From: a virus
Virus record (IMG/VR): IMGVR_UViG_3300028592_000004
Span: 1 to 64,000 of that record
Reading direction: 5' to 3' (one strand)
DNA: 64,000 nucleotides
Shown here piece by piece: positions 7,047 to 40,496 of this stretch; the first letter of the stretch is position 1, and the number at the start of each line of letters is the position of its first letter. The notes below the pieces were generated by a model, which was given only the letters and a program-made list of their open reading frames with translations, ran no database searches and was not told the origin of the DNA. A program made the translations under genes and the position numbers.

Positions 7047-7517
7047 CTAGACTCCCTTTGCTTTGAGCAGAGCGAGGACGGCGTCCATTCCAGTCCGCCA
7101 GTCCTCCGGGCTGTCTGTATACCGGGTCACGTGGACGTTTGGAATCTCATTGCGCAACCAGAGCTCCTCGCACCGCGAGCGCGTCGCGGCAGGGATCAGC
7201 AGCGAATGGCGCACATCACACAGAGCGGATTCGATGTCACCACTTCGAAGGTAATCCAGCGCCTGAAGAATTCGTGCGAATTCAGGCGTCATGTGGTGCG
7301 GATAGGTGGTTCGCTCAAGCGGCACTTCGCCGGTCTGAGCCATGACCGCCCCGCCCAAGCAGACCAGACACACACCCTCCGCCGGGTGGTGCCAGCTGCT
7401 CATGTCGATTTCGTAGCGAGGATCCTGCTCGCATTTGCGTAGGTCCTCAAGGGCAAGCTCCAGCCACTCGGACAAAGCCCGGGGCTGGAGCTGATCAACA
7501 GCAGCAAATTCCGACAT
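7047..7517 (-). CDS. CLAG-motif paralogous family protein (member 2)
   Basis: 156 aa. Conserved elements: ALSEWLELALEDLRKCEQDP, YEIDMSSW, CLVCLGGAVM (a Gly replaces the usual Ala of CLAG), and the helix ILQALDYLRSGDIESAL. The C-terminal TGMDAVLALLKAKGV matches the ends of its paralogues. Function unknown. Confidence 0.7.
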   Translation of the reverse strand: MSEFAAVDQLQPRALSEWLELALEDLRKCEQDPRYEIDMSSWHHPAEGVCLVCLGGAVMAQTGEVPLERTTYPHHMTPEFARILQALDYLRSGDIESALCDVRHSLLIPAATRSRCEELWLRNEIPNVHVTRYTDSPEDWRTGMDAVLALLKAKGV

Positions 7518-7791: not shown

Positions 7792-8127
7792 TCAGAGCAT
7801 CTTCGCGGCCAAGAGCAGCGTCAGCAGGTGGAACGCATTGTCCACCACGATGCTGCTCCAAGGCCCCATGTTGTCACGGAAGCCGGCCTGGCCGGCATGC
7901 CCCATGTACCAGTGGATAAACTGGCTGCGGTCGATCGCAAAGTGCGTCGCGAACAGCCAGAAAAGCGGCAGCAACGACCAGCAGCCACTGCAGGTCGCCA
8001 CCGCCAGGGTCCAGACAAGGCAATGCACCGCACAGGGCAGTGACGCCTTCTTCTTGTTGAGGGCCATCCAGTGGTTCTGGAGCAGATAGTCCCCAACCAT
8101 GTGGCCGACAATCATCTCGGCAAGCAT
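7792..8127 (-). CDS. DUF3307-like integral membrane protein
   Basis: 111 aa with three to four hydrophobic segments. The opening MLAEMIVGHMVGDYLLQNHW, with its HxxxDYxLQ pattern and a following lysine-rich turn and HCLVWT, then HFAIDRSQF, matches the DUF3307 layout as I recall it. That family is a small polytopic protein of unknown function found in bacteria and some phages. The assignment rests on pattern memory. Confidence 0.55.
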   Translation of the reverse strand: MLAEMIVGHMVGDYLLQNHWMALNKKKASLPCAVHCLVWTLAVATCSGCWSLLPLFWLFATHFAIDRSQFIHWYMGHAGQAGFRDNMGPWSSIVVDNAFHLLTLLLAAKML

Positions 8128-8618
8128 TACAACTCCACCTCTTTCAGTTTGTCGGCGACGGCCTGGATGTAGGCAAAGAACTCAGCGTTCGAATCATTGC
8201 GGCTGTAAACCCACTCGACAGCGTCCGGCAGGCTAACAGGCCAACCAGAAAAACCGAGTGGACTCATCTTTTTGCGATCTGCCTCAGGAATGTAGCCGAC
8301 TGCGTCCTGAGCGTAGATGAGCGAGGTCTGGATGTGGCCACCACGGACAGCGTCGATTGCCTGGAGCAGATTTCGCTCAAACTGCGTGAGGCTGTGGAAC
8401 TCGTCCGCGAACCGGCTTGTCGGGTTGTGCCCGGCACCGGCCAGCACAGAGCCAGCCAGGCAGACGCGGCAGACACCCGGACGGGTGTAGTGCTGTTTGA
8501 GAAAGCAGGTCATATCGACCTCAAAGACTGGGTCCAGTTCGACCCGCTTGAGATCAGCAATAGCGAGTTCAAGCCACGCGGAGAACTTCCGCGGGCTCAT
8601 GTCGTGGGCTGGCGTCAT
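8127..8618 (-). CDS. CLAG-motif paralogous family protein (member 3)
   Basis: 163 aa. Contains MSPRKFSAWLELAIADLKRV, FEVDMTCF, CRVCLAGSVLAGAGHNP and LLQAIDAVRGGHIQTSLIYA. First of three consecutive members (8127-9714), each overlapping the next by 4 bp. The tandem order indicates local gene duplication. Function unknown. Confidence 0.7.
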   Translation of the reverse strand: MTPAHDMSPRKFSAWLELAIADLKRVELDPVFEVDMTCFLKQHYTRPGVCRVCLAGSVLAGAGHNPTSRFADEFHSLTQFERNLLQAIDAVRGGHIQTSLIYAQDAVGYIPEADRKKMSPLGFSGWPVSLPDAVEWVYSRNDSNAEFFAYIQAVADKLKEVEL

Positions 8619-9184
8619 ATCCCAAGCTCTTTCAGCTTAGCGACCACCCGATCCATGCCGTCGTAGAACGGCTGTTGGTCCGAAGCCGATTTCTTGTGCT
8701 CCCAGTAGCCGATTTCCAAAGAGCAGTCGTCGCCGGCAAAGCGAAGCTCAGCAATTCTCGGCCGCACAGCAGCGTCAATGAACCGGTTTTCGCTACCCAG
8801 CTCATCAAGTGCCGCGTCGATGTTGCCGTTCCGTAGCTGGTTGATCGCTTGCAGCAGCTCTTGGCTATCGGCACTGAGGTAGTTGAAGACATCTCGTTCA
8901 AAGGTCGTGGAGACGCCGGCGCCGGCCAGGACAGAGCCAGCCAGGCACATTTGGCATTGCGGAGTCAAATAATCCTCATGGCGGTGATGCGGATTGACTC
9001 TCGACTGCACGTAGAACACACCCATGTTCACTACGAACCCGGGCGTGACGGCGAACCGTCGAAGGTCCGCAACGGCAAGTTCGAGCCACGCGGAGAGGGA
9101 CCGCGGACTCATGTCGTGTACGATCTGCTCCTCTTTGAATTCGAGAAGAGATCCCAGCAGCGTCTTCGTGTCAGGCTCAGTCAC
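8615..9184 (-). CDS. CLAG-motif paralogous family protein (member 4)
   Basis: 189 aa from a GTG in a GTGA overlap with the upstream stop. Longer N-terminal arm than its neighbours (TLLGSLLEFKEEQIVHD before MSPRSLSAWLELAVADL). It carries an insert rich in His before the motif (NPHHRHEDYLTPQCQMC), then CLAGSVLAGAG, which could add metal ligands. Ends in VVAKLKELGI like its relatives. Confidence 0.7.
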   Translation of the reverse strand: MTEPDTKTLLGSLLEFKEEQIVHDMSPRSLSAWLELAVADLRRFAVTPGFVVNMGVFYVQSRVNPHHRHEDYLTPQCQMCLAGSVLAGAGVSTTFERDVFNYLSADSQELLQAINQLRNGNIDAALDELGSENRFIDAAVRPRIAELRFAGDDCSLEIGYWEHKKSASDQQPFYDGMDRVVAKLKELGI

Positions 9185-9714
9185 AGCCCAAGACCTTTCA
9201 GTTCGAGAAGAACAGAGTGGATGTCTTCGAAGAACGGTTCGTTGTCGGGATCGTTCAGCTCCCAACTCGCCATCTCGTCTTCGAAGTTCGGTAGACGAGA
9301 CCCCTCGTCGAGCAGCTCACGGATCCGCTTCCAGTCGCTCTCGACGATGTAGCGGTTCTCGTCCTTGCTAAGCATGAGGTTGTAGAGAGCGCCCGCGATG
9401 CGACCACGTCGCAGCTTATCGATCGCGAACAGGAGGCCAGCGAGGTCCGCGTCGCCGCGGGTGATGTTTTCCATCGTGCCAGCCGGCGTCCAGTGATCCA
9501 ATCCGGCTCCGACGAGAATGGAACCGGCCAAGCACACGTAGCACGTGTCCGTGTGGAGCGTCGCCAGGAAGTAATCCATGTGCGGCGTGTATCTGGGGTC
9601 CTGCATGACCAGCTTCAGGTCCTGCACCGCCAGTTCGAGCCACTCGGAGAGTTTCCGAGGGCTCATGTCGTGCTGTTTAAGTGCGGTTTCCATCGCTACT
9701 TTCTGCGGCGTCAC
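9181..9714 (-). CDS. CLAG-motif paralogous family protein (member 5)
   Basis: 177 aa from a GTG overlapping the previous stop. Contains MSPRKLSEWLELAVQDLK, CYVCLAGSILVGAG and LLFAIDKLRRGRIAGALYNL. Very similar to the next two members, so the duplication may be recent. Function unknown. Confidence 0.7.
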   Translation of the reverse strand: MTPQKVAMETALKQHDMSPRKLSEWLELAVQDLKLVMQDPRYTPHMDYFLATLHTDTCYVCLAGSILVGAGLDHWTPAGTMENITRGDADLAGLLFAIDKLRRGRIAGALYNLMLSKDENRYIVESDWKRIRELLDEGSRLPNFEDEMASWELNDPDNEPFFEDIHSVLLELKGLGL

Positions 9715-20057: not shown

Positions 20058-20337
20058 CGTCTTCCTCGGTTTCGTCGAGTTCTTCCAGGTCCGCTTCCAG
20101 CTCTTGCAACTCCTCCCCGATCTCTTCGGCGTAGTTCTCCTCGACTGAGAACAGCAGCGTATGGATCGAAAACTCACCGTTACGATGAGCGAGGTGGCAC
20201 AAGTCGACCATCAGATCCGTGATGGCACTCATGGGATCCGCGGTCAGCACTGAGGGGTGATCCCCGCAGGCTTTCACGAATGTTTCGAGCGCTTCCTGCG
20301 CCCAGTCAGCCCGTTGGTCGTTCGTGGGCGTTGTCAT
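20038..20337 (-). CDS. acidic-tailed helical protein
   Basis: 99 aa. Residues 1-65 are helical; the last 30 are almost all Glu/Asp/Leu (EEIGEELQELEADLEELDET then DDDADEN). Such tails can mimic DNA or mask a binding surface, but no specific role is supported. Confidence 0.6.
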   Translation of the reverse strand: MTTPTNDQRADWAQEALETFVKACGDHPSVLTADPMSAITDLMVDLCHLAHRNGEFSIHTLLFSVEENYAEEIGEELQELEADLEELDETEEDDDADEN

Positions 20338-20780
20338 GATGGCTTCTCGGGAGCAGGAATCGGTTCAAGCCGAGTCCGCTCGATGAACTTTTTCGCGGCG
20401 GACGCCAACGCGTTCCACTGCTCAGTGCTGACCTGGACTTTCGTCCAACCGTCTGCCCCGGGGTGACTCATACTTTCAGCCAGAACTCCAGCCACCCGCC
20501 GCACGATCTGGATCGCCTGGTGGGCATCGGAAAGATCGTCATACTGCGGTCGGAACTGCTGTACGGCGAGATCGTCTTCCCACCGGTCGTCGAACATCTG
20601 CATGATGTCGTACTGCACGGTCCCCATCCGTTCGAACAGTTCTCGCAGGTGGAATGCGAGTCTGGCACGCTCTGAAGCGTAGGTCGTAGGTGGGGACAGT
20701 TCTTTGACGACCTCTCTGATCAGGTCGGCGCCGGCGCAGGCCTCCGCTACCCGAGCCAGCAATTTAGTTGCCAGGGCCAC
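20334..20780 (-). CDS. hypothetical helical protein
   Basis: 148 aa, all-helical by appearance: ATKLLARVAEACAGADLIRE, ARLAFHLRELFERMGTVQYD, AHQAIQIVRRVAGVLAESM. Immediately upstream on the map of the acidic-tailed gene, and 15 nt after the PII-like gene in transcription order. Function unknown. Confidence 0.6.
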   Translation of the reverse strand: MALATKLLARVAEACAGADLIREVVKELSPPTTYASERARLAFHLRELFERMGTVQYDIMQMFDDRWEDDLAVQQFRPQYDDLSDAHQAIQIVRRVAGVLAESMSHPGADGWTKVQVSTEQWNALASAAKKFIERTRLEPIPAPEKPS

Positions 20781-20795: not shown

Positions 20796-21119
20796 TTAGG
20801 GTCGGACTGCCGTCTCTCCTGTTTCGCCGGTCCGGATACGGATCGCCTCTTCCAGGTTGCTCACCCAGATGAGTCCGTCTCCAGTCTTACCGGTCCTGGC
20901 CTTTGCGATCGCTGCGACGGCCGCGTCGACCTCGCTGTCCAGGACCACGATGTCGAGCTTCAGCTTCGGCAGGAAGTCGGCGCAAAAGTCCTTCGGGTTT
21001 TGCTTCCGACCGATTCCACGAGCCTCGGTCACCGTCATCGCGTGGATGCCGGCTTCGAGAAGTGCTTGCTGGACATCCGACAGCTTGTAGTGGCGGATGA
21101 CCGCTTCGATCTTCTTCAC
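20796..21119 (-). CDS. PII-like signalling protein with shortened T-loop
   Basis: 107 aa, against about 112 in GlnB/GlnK. MKKIEAVIRHYKLSDVQQAL, GMTVTE-like HAMTVTEARGIGR, DFLPKLKLDIVVLDSEVDAA, TGKTGDGLIWV and EEAIRIRTGETGE align along the whole PII family. Between GIGR and DFLPK only NPKDFCA-like residues remain, so the T-loop is about six residues short and the uridylylated Tyr51 is absent. The B-loop Lys90 of E. coli GlnB is Leu83 here; the arginines of RIR remain. PII proteins are trimeric sensors of ATP/ADP and 2-oxoglutarate that control nitrogen metabolism. A T-loop variant could bind nucleotide but not canonical targets, or compete in mixed trimers with host PII. No amtB or glnA is nearby. 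Confidence 0.85.
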   Translation of the reverse strand: MKKIEAVIRHYKLSDVQQALLEAGIHAMTVTEARGIGRKQNPKDFCADFLPKLKLDIVVLDSEVDAAVAAIAKARTGKTGDGLIWVSNLEEAIRIRTGETGETAVRP

Positions 21120-21130
21120 GTCGATTCTCC

Positions 21131-21601
21131 TCAGACGACCTTGTGCTGGCGGTACACGACCGCCATGTCGACATGGCGGTCAGACTCTGGAAGCCGATAT
21201 CTGCAGGTCTTCGGTTCCGCGGTGAGGTCATAACCTTCTGAGGTTCCGTGGCGAAGCAACCACTTAATCCGGGCAACGGCCGCGTTCCGATTTGCACAGC
21301 CGGCCTGCATCAGGAACAGAAAGGACGCGAGCTGCCCGTTCAATCCAAGATGCGCGGCCGCTGCATCAAACACTCCACGTTGGCGGGCGTGGATGTCGTC
21401 ACCGTGCAGATCAAACAAAATGCACGCGTGCCCAGCAACACACGCAGTTGTCCCGCAGTTGTAGACTGCACCCTTCGTGCCTTTCTTCGCCTGGAACTTC
21501 CGCTCGGCTATCGAGCGCCCGAAGTAGATCTTGTAGTTGAACTTCTCGGGCGGAGATTCCAGCAGGTACTTCATCAACCTTCGCAAACGACCCTTTCGCA
21601 T
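21131..21601 (-). CDS. CGTTACVAG-motif protein, distant CLAG relative
   Basis: 156 aa. A basic N-terminal helix, then YNCGTTACVAGHACILF near residue 50, followed by a helical LGLNGQLASFLFLMQAGCAN. The CGTTACxAG motif recurs in small phage and bacterial proteins of unknown function that I recall. It probably corresponds to the CxVCLAG motif of the six paralogues elsewhere in this window. Located directly upstream of the PII-like gene. Confidence 0.6.
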   Translation of the reverse strand: MRKGRLRRLMKYLLESPPEKFNYKIYFGRSIAERKFQAKKGTKGAVYNCGTTACVAGHACILFDLHGDDIHARQRGVFDAAAAHLGLNGQLASFLFLMQAGCANRNAAVARIKWLLRHGTSEGYDLTAEPKTCRYRLPESDRHVDMAVVYRQHKVV

Positions 21602-37482: not shown

Positions 37483-38301
37483 TTACGGTCGACTGAGACG
37501 CGCAATCACAGGCACCTTCCAGAGCCACGGAGAGGGATGCTGGAAGGTGTCGGTCGTCGCGACCGTGTCGTACATACTCAGCGCGTCGAGGCCTTTGGAG
37601 AAGATTCCGTGGGCCACAAACAGGGCTGTTGATCTGGCGCCGGCGAGCCGCGGATGAAGCATCTTGAAGGTTGCTCCACCATCGCAGATGTCGTCCACAA
37701 CGAGGACGTGCAGACCAGTGGCATCAACAGGCTTGTCGTCAACGCCGCGGATCTCCTTGTAGACGAGAGATCCGGTCGACGGATCTCGCGACTTCTCGCC
37801 GTACCAGACGTGAAAAGAGGGAACACGAACCGCCGCTTCCTGCTGACTGCGAAGGAAGGCTCCCTTATCCGGCAACAGGATGACCGTATCTTCGCTTGGC
37901 CAGCCCAGGCGCTGCAGGAGAGTGTCGACCTCGGGCCACATCGAAACGTTCTCAAGATTGTCGATCTCAGCGAACGCTGCCGCACTGTGGGCCTCGTAGG
38001 TACGCACGCGGGAGTAACCGAGCTCGTTGATCAGCCGGCCGAACACGCGTAGCGAGAACGGCGACAGCTTCTCAGGGTCAGTCACACGATCCTGCCGGCC
38101 GTACGGTAGATAAGGGAGAACGAGAGTCCTCGGCTGCATACCGTTCCGCTTGAGGACGTCTGTCGCAAGGAGCAGATTCATCAGCGCGGAACTGGATCGA
38201 ATGTCGGCCAGGAGAAACCCGTCGTTCTCCATGCCGGCTTGCAGCACAACATGCTGCTCCCCGGCGGAGAAGGTCAGCGTCTTAAAACTGGACAGAAGCA
38301 T
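37483..38301 (-). CDS. PRPP synthetase family pyrophosphokinase
   Basis: 272 aa, shorter than cellular Prs (about 310). LPYLPYGRQDR near residue 62, the EAHS region (DLHA in Prs) and VLVVDDICDGGATF near residue 200, the PRPP loop, assign the family, which transfers pyrophosphate from ATP to ribose 5-phosphate. It overlaps the upstream NAMPT gene by 20 bp. In phage NAD+ rebuilding pathways a Prs relative acts with a NAMPT relative; an ADP-ribose-using variant would need biochemical proof. Confidence 0.8.
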   Translation of the reverse strand: MLLSSFKTLTFSAGEQHVVLQAGMENDGFLLADIRSSSALMNLLLATDVLKRNGMQPRTLVLPYLPYGRQDRVTDPEKLSPFSLRVFGRLINELGYSRVRTYEAHSAAAFAEIDNLENVSMWPEVDTLLQRLGWPSEDTVILLPDKGAFLRSQQEAAVRVPSFHVWYGEKSRDPSTGSLVYKEIRGVDDKPVDATGLHVLVVDDICDGGATFKMLHPRLAGARSTALFVAHGIFSKGLDALSMYDTVATTDTFQHPSPWLWKVPVIARLSRP

Positions 38302-39685
38302 GGAAGTTCCTTCGCACTTCGTCGAACGTGTAGCGCCGCAGGATCTGCCCGTTTCGGAAAACAGGCATGAGTTCGCTGGGCGCGTCGGGCGGTGCCGAGT
38401 CGTAGGTGACCCCGGCGCGGAGAGCGACCCGGCCAACATGGCTCTTCTTGCCAGAGTCGGTGATCGGGTCCTTGAAGATGTTGACGTTGCGACCGTTCCG
38501 CGTGATCTGCGTGGCCTTGATCGCCATCCCCAGAGTGTCCCGCGTGCCGGCCCGGAGCAGACCACCAGCTCCGATGACGATATTCGATCCGTCGTACCCA
38601 GAGCCGACAGAGCGAATCAGCGTCTCCTCGTACCGCTGATGGTACATCCCGTCCCCGTAGATCAGCCCGATCTTCGGATTCAAGATACGGTACGGACTGT
38701 CGGCCAGCCGCTCGCTGCCGAACAACTCGTCCAACAGGACCAGCACACCCTTGGCCTCCGGCGTACCTGGCTCAGCCTTGGCATCACCGCAGATGATGTC
38801 CGGCGGGTAACCGCTATCGGGACGGATGATGACCCGACCGTTACGGGCAAGGATCTTGTCCTTCAGCCGCGGCAGAATGTTCGTACAGACGTGCCAGATC
38901 GAGTAGGTGTCCGAGACGATGGAAACGTAGCCGTCCGGATACAACTCCAGCATCCGCTCGAACGCCTCGAACTCGAACTCGCGACCGTAGGAGCACATGA
39001 CAGAGTGCTCGGAGGCGGGCACAGACATCATGCACGGCGATTCCGTTGGGAGGCTGTAGTACTCCTCAATGAACGGCTCGGCCACGATCGTGTCGCTGCC
39101 GCGGAACACGATGAGATGCGCTGCGCCGGAGATTGCCGCTGACTCCTCAGACGTGTCGCTCCGGTAGCCGAAGTCGTGCACGTTGAATTCCAGAGGCTGT
39201 CGCGAGTAGCGACGAGCGATTCGGTAATACTCCAGACTGTTTGTCGCGACGGTGCAGGGATACCACACCTTCAGCAGCAACGATTCCAGAAAGCCCGGCG
39301 CCCACGGGAAGTCGTCGTGCGTCGACTCCAGCGTGAGCAGGGCATTCTTCACCGGCAGGACGGTGCCCTCAGGCACGGCGCTGATCTCGACAGGCCACTG
39401 ACCGAGGTCAGCGATGCCGTGGAGCTTCTCCTTGATGTCGTCGCTCGGCTCGGACCCGAGGATCCGCCGACGCCGCTTGAGGAAGTCCTCGACGTTGGCC
39501 GTCGTGATGGGCTGAGTCAAGTACTCCATCAGGTAGTACTGCAAGCCGAAGAACAGGAGCTCCTCGAAGTACTTGTCGCTTCGGGCGTTCAGATACGAAA
39601 TCACCCGGGTGGTCCCGGGTGCGTACTGTTCCATGTGGCCCATCTTGTAGACGTCAGTCCGCAGAAGCGGGTGAACTAGCTTCAT
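38282..39685 (-). CDS. nicotinamide phosphoribosyltransferase (NAMPT/Namat-type)
   Basis: 467 aa, near the family's usual 480-490. TDVYKMGHMEQYAPGTTRVI, VHDFGYRSDTSEESAAISGA, VSDTYSIWHVC, IRPDSGYPPD and NIVIGAGGLLRAGTRDTLG follow the NAMPT core in order, including the RPDSG loop. The enzyme joins nicotinamide to PRPP to give NMN, or to ADP-ribose pyrophosphate to give NAD+ in the phage Namat variant. Overlap with the Prs homologue downstream points to one pathway. Which variant this is cannot be told from the sequence. Confidence 0.85.
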   Translation of the reverse strand: MKLVHPLLRTDVYKMGHMEQYAPGTTRVISYLNARSDKYFEELLFFGLQYYLMEYLTQPITTANVEDFLKRRRRILGSEPSDDIKEKLHGIADLGQWPVEISAVPEGTVLPVKNALLTLESTHDDFPWAPGFLESLLLKVWYPCTVATNSLEYYRIARRYSRQPLEFNVHDFGYRSDTSEESAAISGAAHLIVFRGSDTIVAEPFIEEYYSLPTESPCMMSVPASEHSVMCSYGREFEFEAFERMLELYPDGYVSIVSDTYSIWHVCTNILPRLKDKILARNGRVIIRPDSGYPPDIICGDAKAEPGTPEAKGVLVLLDELFGSERLADSPYRILNPKIGLIYGDGMYHQRYEETLIRSVGSGYDGSNIVIGAGGLLRAGTRDTLGMAIKATQITRNGRNVNIFKDPITDSGKKSHVGRVALRAGVTYDSAPPDAPSELMPVFRNGQILRRYTFDEVRRNFHASVQF

Positions 39686-39694
39686 GACTCGCTT

Positions 39695-40087
39695 TCATTC
39701 GATGTCGATGCCTCGCACGTTTGTTGGCGAGGCTGGTGGAGGAGGTGATTCAGGCGACAACATAGCCTGACGCTGCAGAAAGTCGAGCAAGGCGACAGCC
39801 TGAGAACGTGTCACAGGTTTCATCGCCGTCAGCTGCTCAGTGCCGCGAACCCAGACCTCGAACTTCACGGGGTCTGTTTCGATGATGAGGTTGAGTCGGC
39901 CGAAGCGGAGTGAAAAGCCAGAAGCCGACTGCGAATGCTTCGGTCCTGGATCCTGGTCAGCGAAGACAGCCAACGCATTCGCCTGCGGACCAGTCATCAG
40001 CAGAACAAGATCGACATCGGAGTTGGGCTTTGGCGATCCGTAGACGCGACTCCCTGTCAGGATAGCGTTCGGCCGCAGGTCAGGCAC
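39695..40087 (-). CDS. MNT-type nucleotidyltransferase-fold protein
   Basis: 130 aa from a GTG overlapping the upstream stop. AILTGSRVYGSPKPNSDVDL then VLL: GSRxxGxxxxxSDxDL is the minimal nucleotidyltransferase signature (MNT/Cca-type), with LIIETDPVKFEVW as the third-strand region. C-terminal Pro-rich tail. It sits inside the NDK-NAMPT-Prs run, which suggests nucleotide use, but the transferred group and acceptor are unknown. Confidence 0.7.
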   Translation of the reverse strand: MPDLRPNAILTGSRVYGSPKPNSDVDLVLLMTGPQANALAVFADQDPGPKHSQSASGFSLRFGRLNLIIETDPVKFEVWVRGTEQLTAMKPVTRSQAVALLDFLQRQAMLSPESPPPPASPTNVRGIDIE

Positions 40088-40496
40088 CGGTCTTGAACCG
40101 CCCCGGCCAGAAGATCTCAAGCTCGCGAGCCGCCGCTTCGGGGCTATCGCTCGTGTGGGACACCGAGAACGGCAACCTCCGCATGAAGTCCCCGCGGATG
40201 GTGCCCGGCTCCGGGTCCACAGTAGAACCCTGCATTGCTCGGGCTTTCTCGATCGCGTTCTCTCCGGAGATGACCACTGCGATCATCTCCAAGTCCGCGG
40301 TGACGTCGATCAACCGCTCGAAGAAGTCCTTTGACTTATGCTCTTCGTACAGCTTCTCGATCTTGCCGTAGTTCGGCGTAATCATCTCCACATGGAGAAT
40401 ATCGAACCGACGCTCAAGCCGGGCCAAGATCGTCCCTGCCAGCTCTCGCTTCAGGGCGTGGTTCTTGATGAGAAAGAGGGTGACTTGCTGCGACAT
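40080..40496 (-). CDS. ndk: nucleoside diphosphate kinase
   Basis: 138 aa, typical NDK length. VTLFLIKNHALKRELAGTIL (Lys11 of the ATP site), LYEEHKSKDFFERLIDVT, AVVISGENAIEKARAMQGST, PGTIRGDFMRRLPFSVSHTS with the phospho-histidine His114. The canonical NxxHGSDS is SVSHTSDS here: His and SDS remain, Asn and Gly do not. NDK balances NTP pools by phosphate transfer from ATP. Rare in phages. Confidence 0.8.
   Translation of the reverse strand: MSQQVTLFLIKNHALKRELAGTILARLERRFDILHVEMITPNYGKIEKLYEEHKSKDFFERLIDVTADLEMIAVVISGENAIEKARAMQGSTVDPEPGTIRGDFMRRLPFSVSHTSDSPEAAARELEIFWPGRFKTGA

Follow-up and report, generated by a model that had tools for sequence, protein, structure and literature searches.

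What use might a phage have for a PII protein whose target-contacting arm is cut short? PII proteins are among the most widespread signaling proteins, with the T-loop as the usual target contact and Tyr51 as the site of uridylylation or adenylylation, and to date viral PIIs with near-intact T-loops have mostly been interpreted as ammonium-uptake boosters. Here, we report a phage PII with a strongly shortened T-loop and tentatively propose that it may interfere with host PII.

Phage record and PII gene

The window (64,000 nucleotides) is the first 64 kb of the 229-kb IMG/VR record IMGVR_UViG_3300028592_000004, which is a jumbo tailed phage. The record carries baseplate J, tail fiber, and terminase-like ATPase genes, and its predicted genes lie nearly all on one strand, with the PII gene (the only PII match in the whole 229 kb) inside that one-strand array; the tailed-phage gene content and the array confirm the phage context assumed in a first-pass annotation made from the sequence alone. 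The features of the locus are as follows.

20796-21119, minus strand: PII (GlnB/GlnK-like) gene, 107 aa, GTG start (Pfam, PDB, AF2/Foldseek)
21127-21132, minus strand: Shine-Dalgarno site GAGGAG, 7 nt before the GTG start (sequence)
21131-21601, minus strand: upstream co-directional ORF, 156 aa, weak match to phrog_889
20334-20780, minus strand: downstream co-directional ORF, 148 aa, no family match
20979-21005, minus strand: shortened T-loop segment KQNPKDFCA, standing for the 15-residue canonical QRGHKEMYRGAEYTV (alignments)
20871-20894, minus strand: B-loop TGKTGDGL (canonical TGxIGDGK, K90 replaced by L), with a one-residue deletion just upstream

The Shine-Dalgarno site shares nucleotides with the upstream gene's stop codon, and the downstream gene begins 15 nt past the PII stop codon; the PII frame is intact, its coding score is phage-like, and operon spacing is tight. 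A Pfam search of the adjoining ORFs gave no match, hence neither amtB nor a CzcABC/CusABC pump was recognized beside the gene. Likewise, no clue to a target was found in the neighborhood, through either family matches or the related phage records described below, in agreement with the earlier remark that the context names none.

Several other genes of the record were recorded. A 1362-aa ORF (L002:7058-11146, minus strand) combines a uracil-DNA glycosylase domain, a 3'-5' exonuclease, and a family-A DNA polymerase, with an additional weak intein match under the cut-off. RNA polymerase beta (Rpb2 domain 6) and beta' (Rpb1 domain 2) parts are joined in a 1486-aa ORF (L007:4518-8978, minus strand), and an additional beta' part occupies a separate ORF (L007:1567-3483, minus strand). 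The record also encodes a caspase-family (Peptidase_C14) protein (L008:802-1605, minus strand) and, between approximately 109 and 229 kb, has matches to TROVE and Ro60 vWA domains, a sulfotransferase, a CAP-family protein, and PAS domains. In the window, genes for a nicotinamide phosphoribosyltransferase-like protein (38282-39685, minus strand) and a nucleoside diphosphate kinase (40080-40496, minus strand) lie near each other. Four similar small proteins (1174-1665, 7047-7517, 8127-8618, and 9181-9714, minus strand; 29-31% identity to the first), most with a C-x-V-C-L-A-G-like motif, may form a phage paralogue family.

Protein identity and shortened T-loop

The 107-aa product is a PII-superfamily protein from end to end and has the PII (ferredoxin-like) fold. 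Residues 1-99 matched Pfam P-II (PF00543; E=3e-24, 85.8 bits, cut-off 25), a PDB sequence search returned PII proteins at E=3e-26 across residues 1-105, and phrog_28307, a PHROG phage-protein family to which no function is assigned, matched over the whole length (E=6e-22). With the AlphaFold (AF2) monomer model (pLDDT 90.3) as the Foldseek query against the PDB, the top 50 matches were all PII (E ~1e-13; TM 0.80-0.90 by query length). The first-pass annotation had called the protein GlnB/GlnK-like from first to last residue and proposed the AlphaFold comparison; sequence and fold matches, including those to solved PII structures, uphold the call. An unrelated ferredoxin-like family was considered and is excluded by both. 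The NCBIfam equivalog score (96 bits) was below the cut-off of 202, as were those of planctomycete PIIs with full T-loops.

The phage PII lacks the canonical GlnB/GlnK features of a full T-loop with YRGA turn and Gly48, Tyr51, and a Gln39-Lys58 pair. Between R38 and D54 it has 9 residues, as opposed to 15 in most PIIs, which matches the initial estimate of a loop about six residues short. In the alignment, GRQRGHKEMYRGAEYTVDF of the closest relatives corresponds to GRKQNPK------DFCADF, and residues 44-49, the hairpin tip, are absent; the deletion covers most of the 46-YRGA-49 turn, in which Gly48 is apparently strictly conserved (PMC7919409). The first reading had also listed Tyr51 as lacking and Lys90 as Leu. 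The tyrosine is indeed gone, although the change is better put as Y51F beside the deletion of 44-49; K90L was verified by alignment with 91 cellular PIIs, 89 of which have K90. Newly found here were Q39K, G41N, G27A, F92W, and a further deletion of one residue immediately before the B-loop. With K58 retained and Q39 replaced by K, the Gln39-Lys58 pair, which is tied to nucleotide-dependent T-loop changes (PMC7919409), is broken; R101, R103, G87, and G89, which contact phosphates (PMC7919409), are retained beside the altered position 90.

Residue loss is selective. Among 46 positions at least 95% conserved in the 91 cellular PIIs, the phage PII keeps 31/34 outside the T-loop and 3/12 inside it (residues 38-55; Fisher p=3.5e-5), a contrast that may be partly sampling, because the relatives were collected via short peptide matches to the query and the sample leans to similar cores.

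The other reading frames restored no hidden T-loop, and the short loop is therefore not a simple frameshift artifact. An assembly or sequencing artifact more generally, or host DNA within the contig, is extremely improbable: the gene comes from a single metagenomic record, but its deletions keep the frame (lengths divisible by three) and have substitutions to either side, no other frame yields a T-loop, the gene stands within the one-strand phage array, and its sequence was in no cellular genome found.

Distribution among viral and cellular PIIs

T-loops of 14-15 residues were present in 174 of the 177 PIIs collected, and those of the collected viral PIIs were all in this range, bar one spurious fusion-like match. 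A profile-guided viral scan yielded 46 PII loci, some of them from a marine clade whose loop has 14 residues, and none of the 46 shared the six-residue deletion, so the search of phage genomes that had been suggested for the same deletion came back empty. A single-sequence scan of viral contigs with the phage PII gave no relatives, all phage-collection matches were below 50% identity, and only one record carries the short-loop PII. A scan with the DNA polymerase found no related phages; RNA polymerase linked eight phage records (53-55% identity), all possibly fragments, in which PII was found in 0/8 and homologs of the two PII-flanking genes in none.

PII/GlnK has already been described as an auxiliary metabolic gene of viruses, with the proposal that the viral GlnK may compete at AmtB with the PII of the host (PMC8115048). 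The earlier impression that PII proteins in phages are unusual was thus only partly right, given that description and the 46 viral loci found here, and the novelty therefore lies in the T-loop variant, not in the presence of PII. The described genes (GOV PII-1 to PII-3 and PII-4 from the ETSP oxygen minimum zone; PMC8115048) are tailed-phage PIIs, as here; the ETSP viral glnK is followed by amtB (PMC8115048), whereas the present gene has no recognized adjoining amtB and a 9-residue loop.

Three other viral matches were set apart. A match to Acinetobacter phage MD-2021a was rejected as kin: it is a glnK-amtB pair and is probably host DNA, because its surroundings look chromosomal. The marine viral clade (L111-L139) has FFSYWD for the usual MTVTEV, GxGNEK for GFGRQK, and a T-loop one residue shorter, and diverges in the effector cleft. 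A 34-kb viral contig (L097:6001-6336, plus strand) carries a planctomycete-type PII with a full T-loop, possibly as a phage gene or as host DNA.

Origin

The closest relatives of the phage PII were planctomycete PIIs with full T-loops (61-63% identity; 65-67% outside the T-loop), and identity to any cellular PII found was 63% at most. Like planctomycete GlnB/GlnK-type PIIs (e.g., L011:5001-5336), it has the IRHYKL N-terminus and the B- and C-loop frames, and it retains the planctomycete DFLPK signature; unlike them (112 aa, a 15-residue T-loop, Q39, G41, Y51, and K90), it differs in length, in loop, and at all four residues. In one close planctomycete genome, the relative (L011) shares its locus with two further PII genes, an Amt transporter, a regulator of the sigma-54 type, and a glnD-like gene (names from reading translations). 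The full tree placed the phage PII within the planctomycete PII clade (support 92/94), on a long branch and from few columns; without the T-loop columns, branching was not resolved. A scan of 294 Planctomycetota genomes gave a match in 175, with none above the best at 61% identity, and among the matches listed, only a protein in genome G243 was short-looped. A DUF1559 protein of the record (L009:12964-14205, minus strand) has an N-terminal methylation motif/prepilin-type N-terminus and belongs to a family characteristic of planctomycetes, a hint of a planctomycete host. Such a host is likely on account of the closest PII relatives, the full-tree clade, and the DUF1559 protein.

Could the gene be recently acquired cargo, decaying or neutral, whose T-loop was lost through relaxed selection? 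Its confinement to one record, its absence from the eight related records, the long branch, and the alteration of several normally invariant residues would suit such a gene, but the intact frame, the Shine-Dalgarno site, the close operon spacing, and a coding score like that of phage genes do not, and retention of 31/34 invariant positions outside the T-loop is not expected from random decay. We regard decay as improbable.

PII-NG, an offshoot of PII, is encoded alongside CzcABC-type metal pumps, and a different role has been proposed for it (PMC7726332). The short-loop protein of genome G243 (L184:6709-7032, minus strand) is PII-NG-like, and a CzcA/CusA-like RND pump gene (L184:7036-10245, minus strand) directly adjoins its gene; in a PDB comparison its best matches were ordinary PIIs, none labeled PII-NG. 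It has the same total length as the phage PII, an equally short loop (8-9 versus 15 residues), and no Tyr51. However, it shares only 46% identity outside the loop, has another loop sequence, keeps K90, and is encoded beside a pump. That the phage PII belongs or is related to this cellular subgroup, instead of being an edited GlnB/GlnK, is very unlikely. The common loop-length class favors such kinship, as does the tree without T-loop columns, where grouping with PII-NG was not rejected (AU p=0.19); against it stand the identity outside the T-loop (46% versus 65-67% to planctomycete GlnB/GlnK), the IRHYKL and DFLPK signatures, the dissimilar loop sequence, the full-tree position in the planctomycete clade, and the absence of an efflux-pump family from the first 25 families in each listing of the record.

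PII-NG, with its proposed different role, is nonetheless a precedent (PMC7726332) for another possibility, in which the phage protein would be an independent homotrimeric sensor of adenine nucleotides or another ligand, rewired through its short loop to a target of the phage or the host and without a role in host nitrogen control. The retained phosphate-contacting residues would serve such a sensor; G27A, Q39K, G41N, K90L, and F92W, changed together at otherwise invariant positions of the cleft or T-loop base, look like altered ligand specificity; and the planctomycete PII-NG-like protein has the same length and an equally short loop. The gene, however, has no recognizable partner, and its neighbors lack counterparts in related phages. 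We consider a rewired sensor possible, if unlikely.

Proposed role in infection

The reading that we prefer, tentatively, is that a host-derived PII, neither uridylylated nor plugging Amt, may interfere with host PII, perhaps by forming mixed trimers. A GlnB/GlnK-type gene would have been captured by the jumbo phage, most likely from a planctomycete host, and then edited, the core being kept and the T-loop tip (44-49), Tyr51, and parts of the cleft (Q39, G41, and K90) being lost or replaced. The product probably folds and trimerizes, by itself or mixed with host PII; uridylylation by GlnD and insertion of a T-loop in the channel of Amt are predicted to be impossible for it, and it probably lacks normal 2-oxoglutarate reading. 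Mixed or competing trimers would blunt host PII output, with interference the most likely effect, and ammonium import and nitrogen assimilation would stay running during infection.

Retention of the core with loss of the contact and modification site makes simple decay less likely, as it does a normal PII that responds to AmtB and GlnD. The loss of Y51, Q39, K90, and the T-loop tip from a protein that keeps its core fits a loss of normal output, and a PII without its contact arm may jam host nitrogen signaling rather than mimic it. Heterotrimers of Escherichia coli GlnB and GlnK (van Heeswijk 2000 and Forchhammer 1999, as cited in PMC5448240) offer, by analogy, a precedent for mixed phage-host trimers. 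Against interference, divergence may be too great, and mixed trimers perhaps impossible, because no cellular PII found exceeds 63% identity to the phage protein; in addition, the variant occurs in one phage only, and the T-loop-free tree did not settle its branching (AU p=0.19 for the PII-NG grouping). Both roles suggested in the first-pass annotation, a dominant-negative subunit and an independent nucleotide sensor, are compatible with these results; we moderately favor interference over a rewired sensor. That the protein is a virus-encoded dominant-negative PII, with its output arm cut off and mixed trimers disabling host nitrogen and energy signaling, seems rather unlikely; if true, it would represent a new mode of viral interference, one aimed at a central metabolic sensor. 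A PII with a conserved core but stripped of its contact and modification site would imply that disabling PII signaling is also open to phages, and the short-loop phage PII provides a natural test of how an armless PII trimer behaves.
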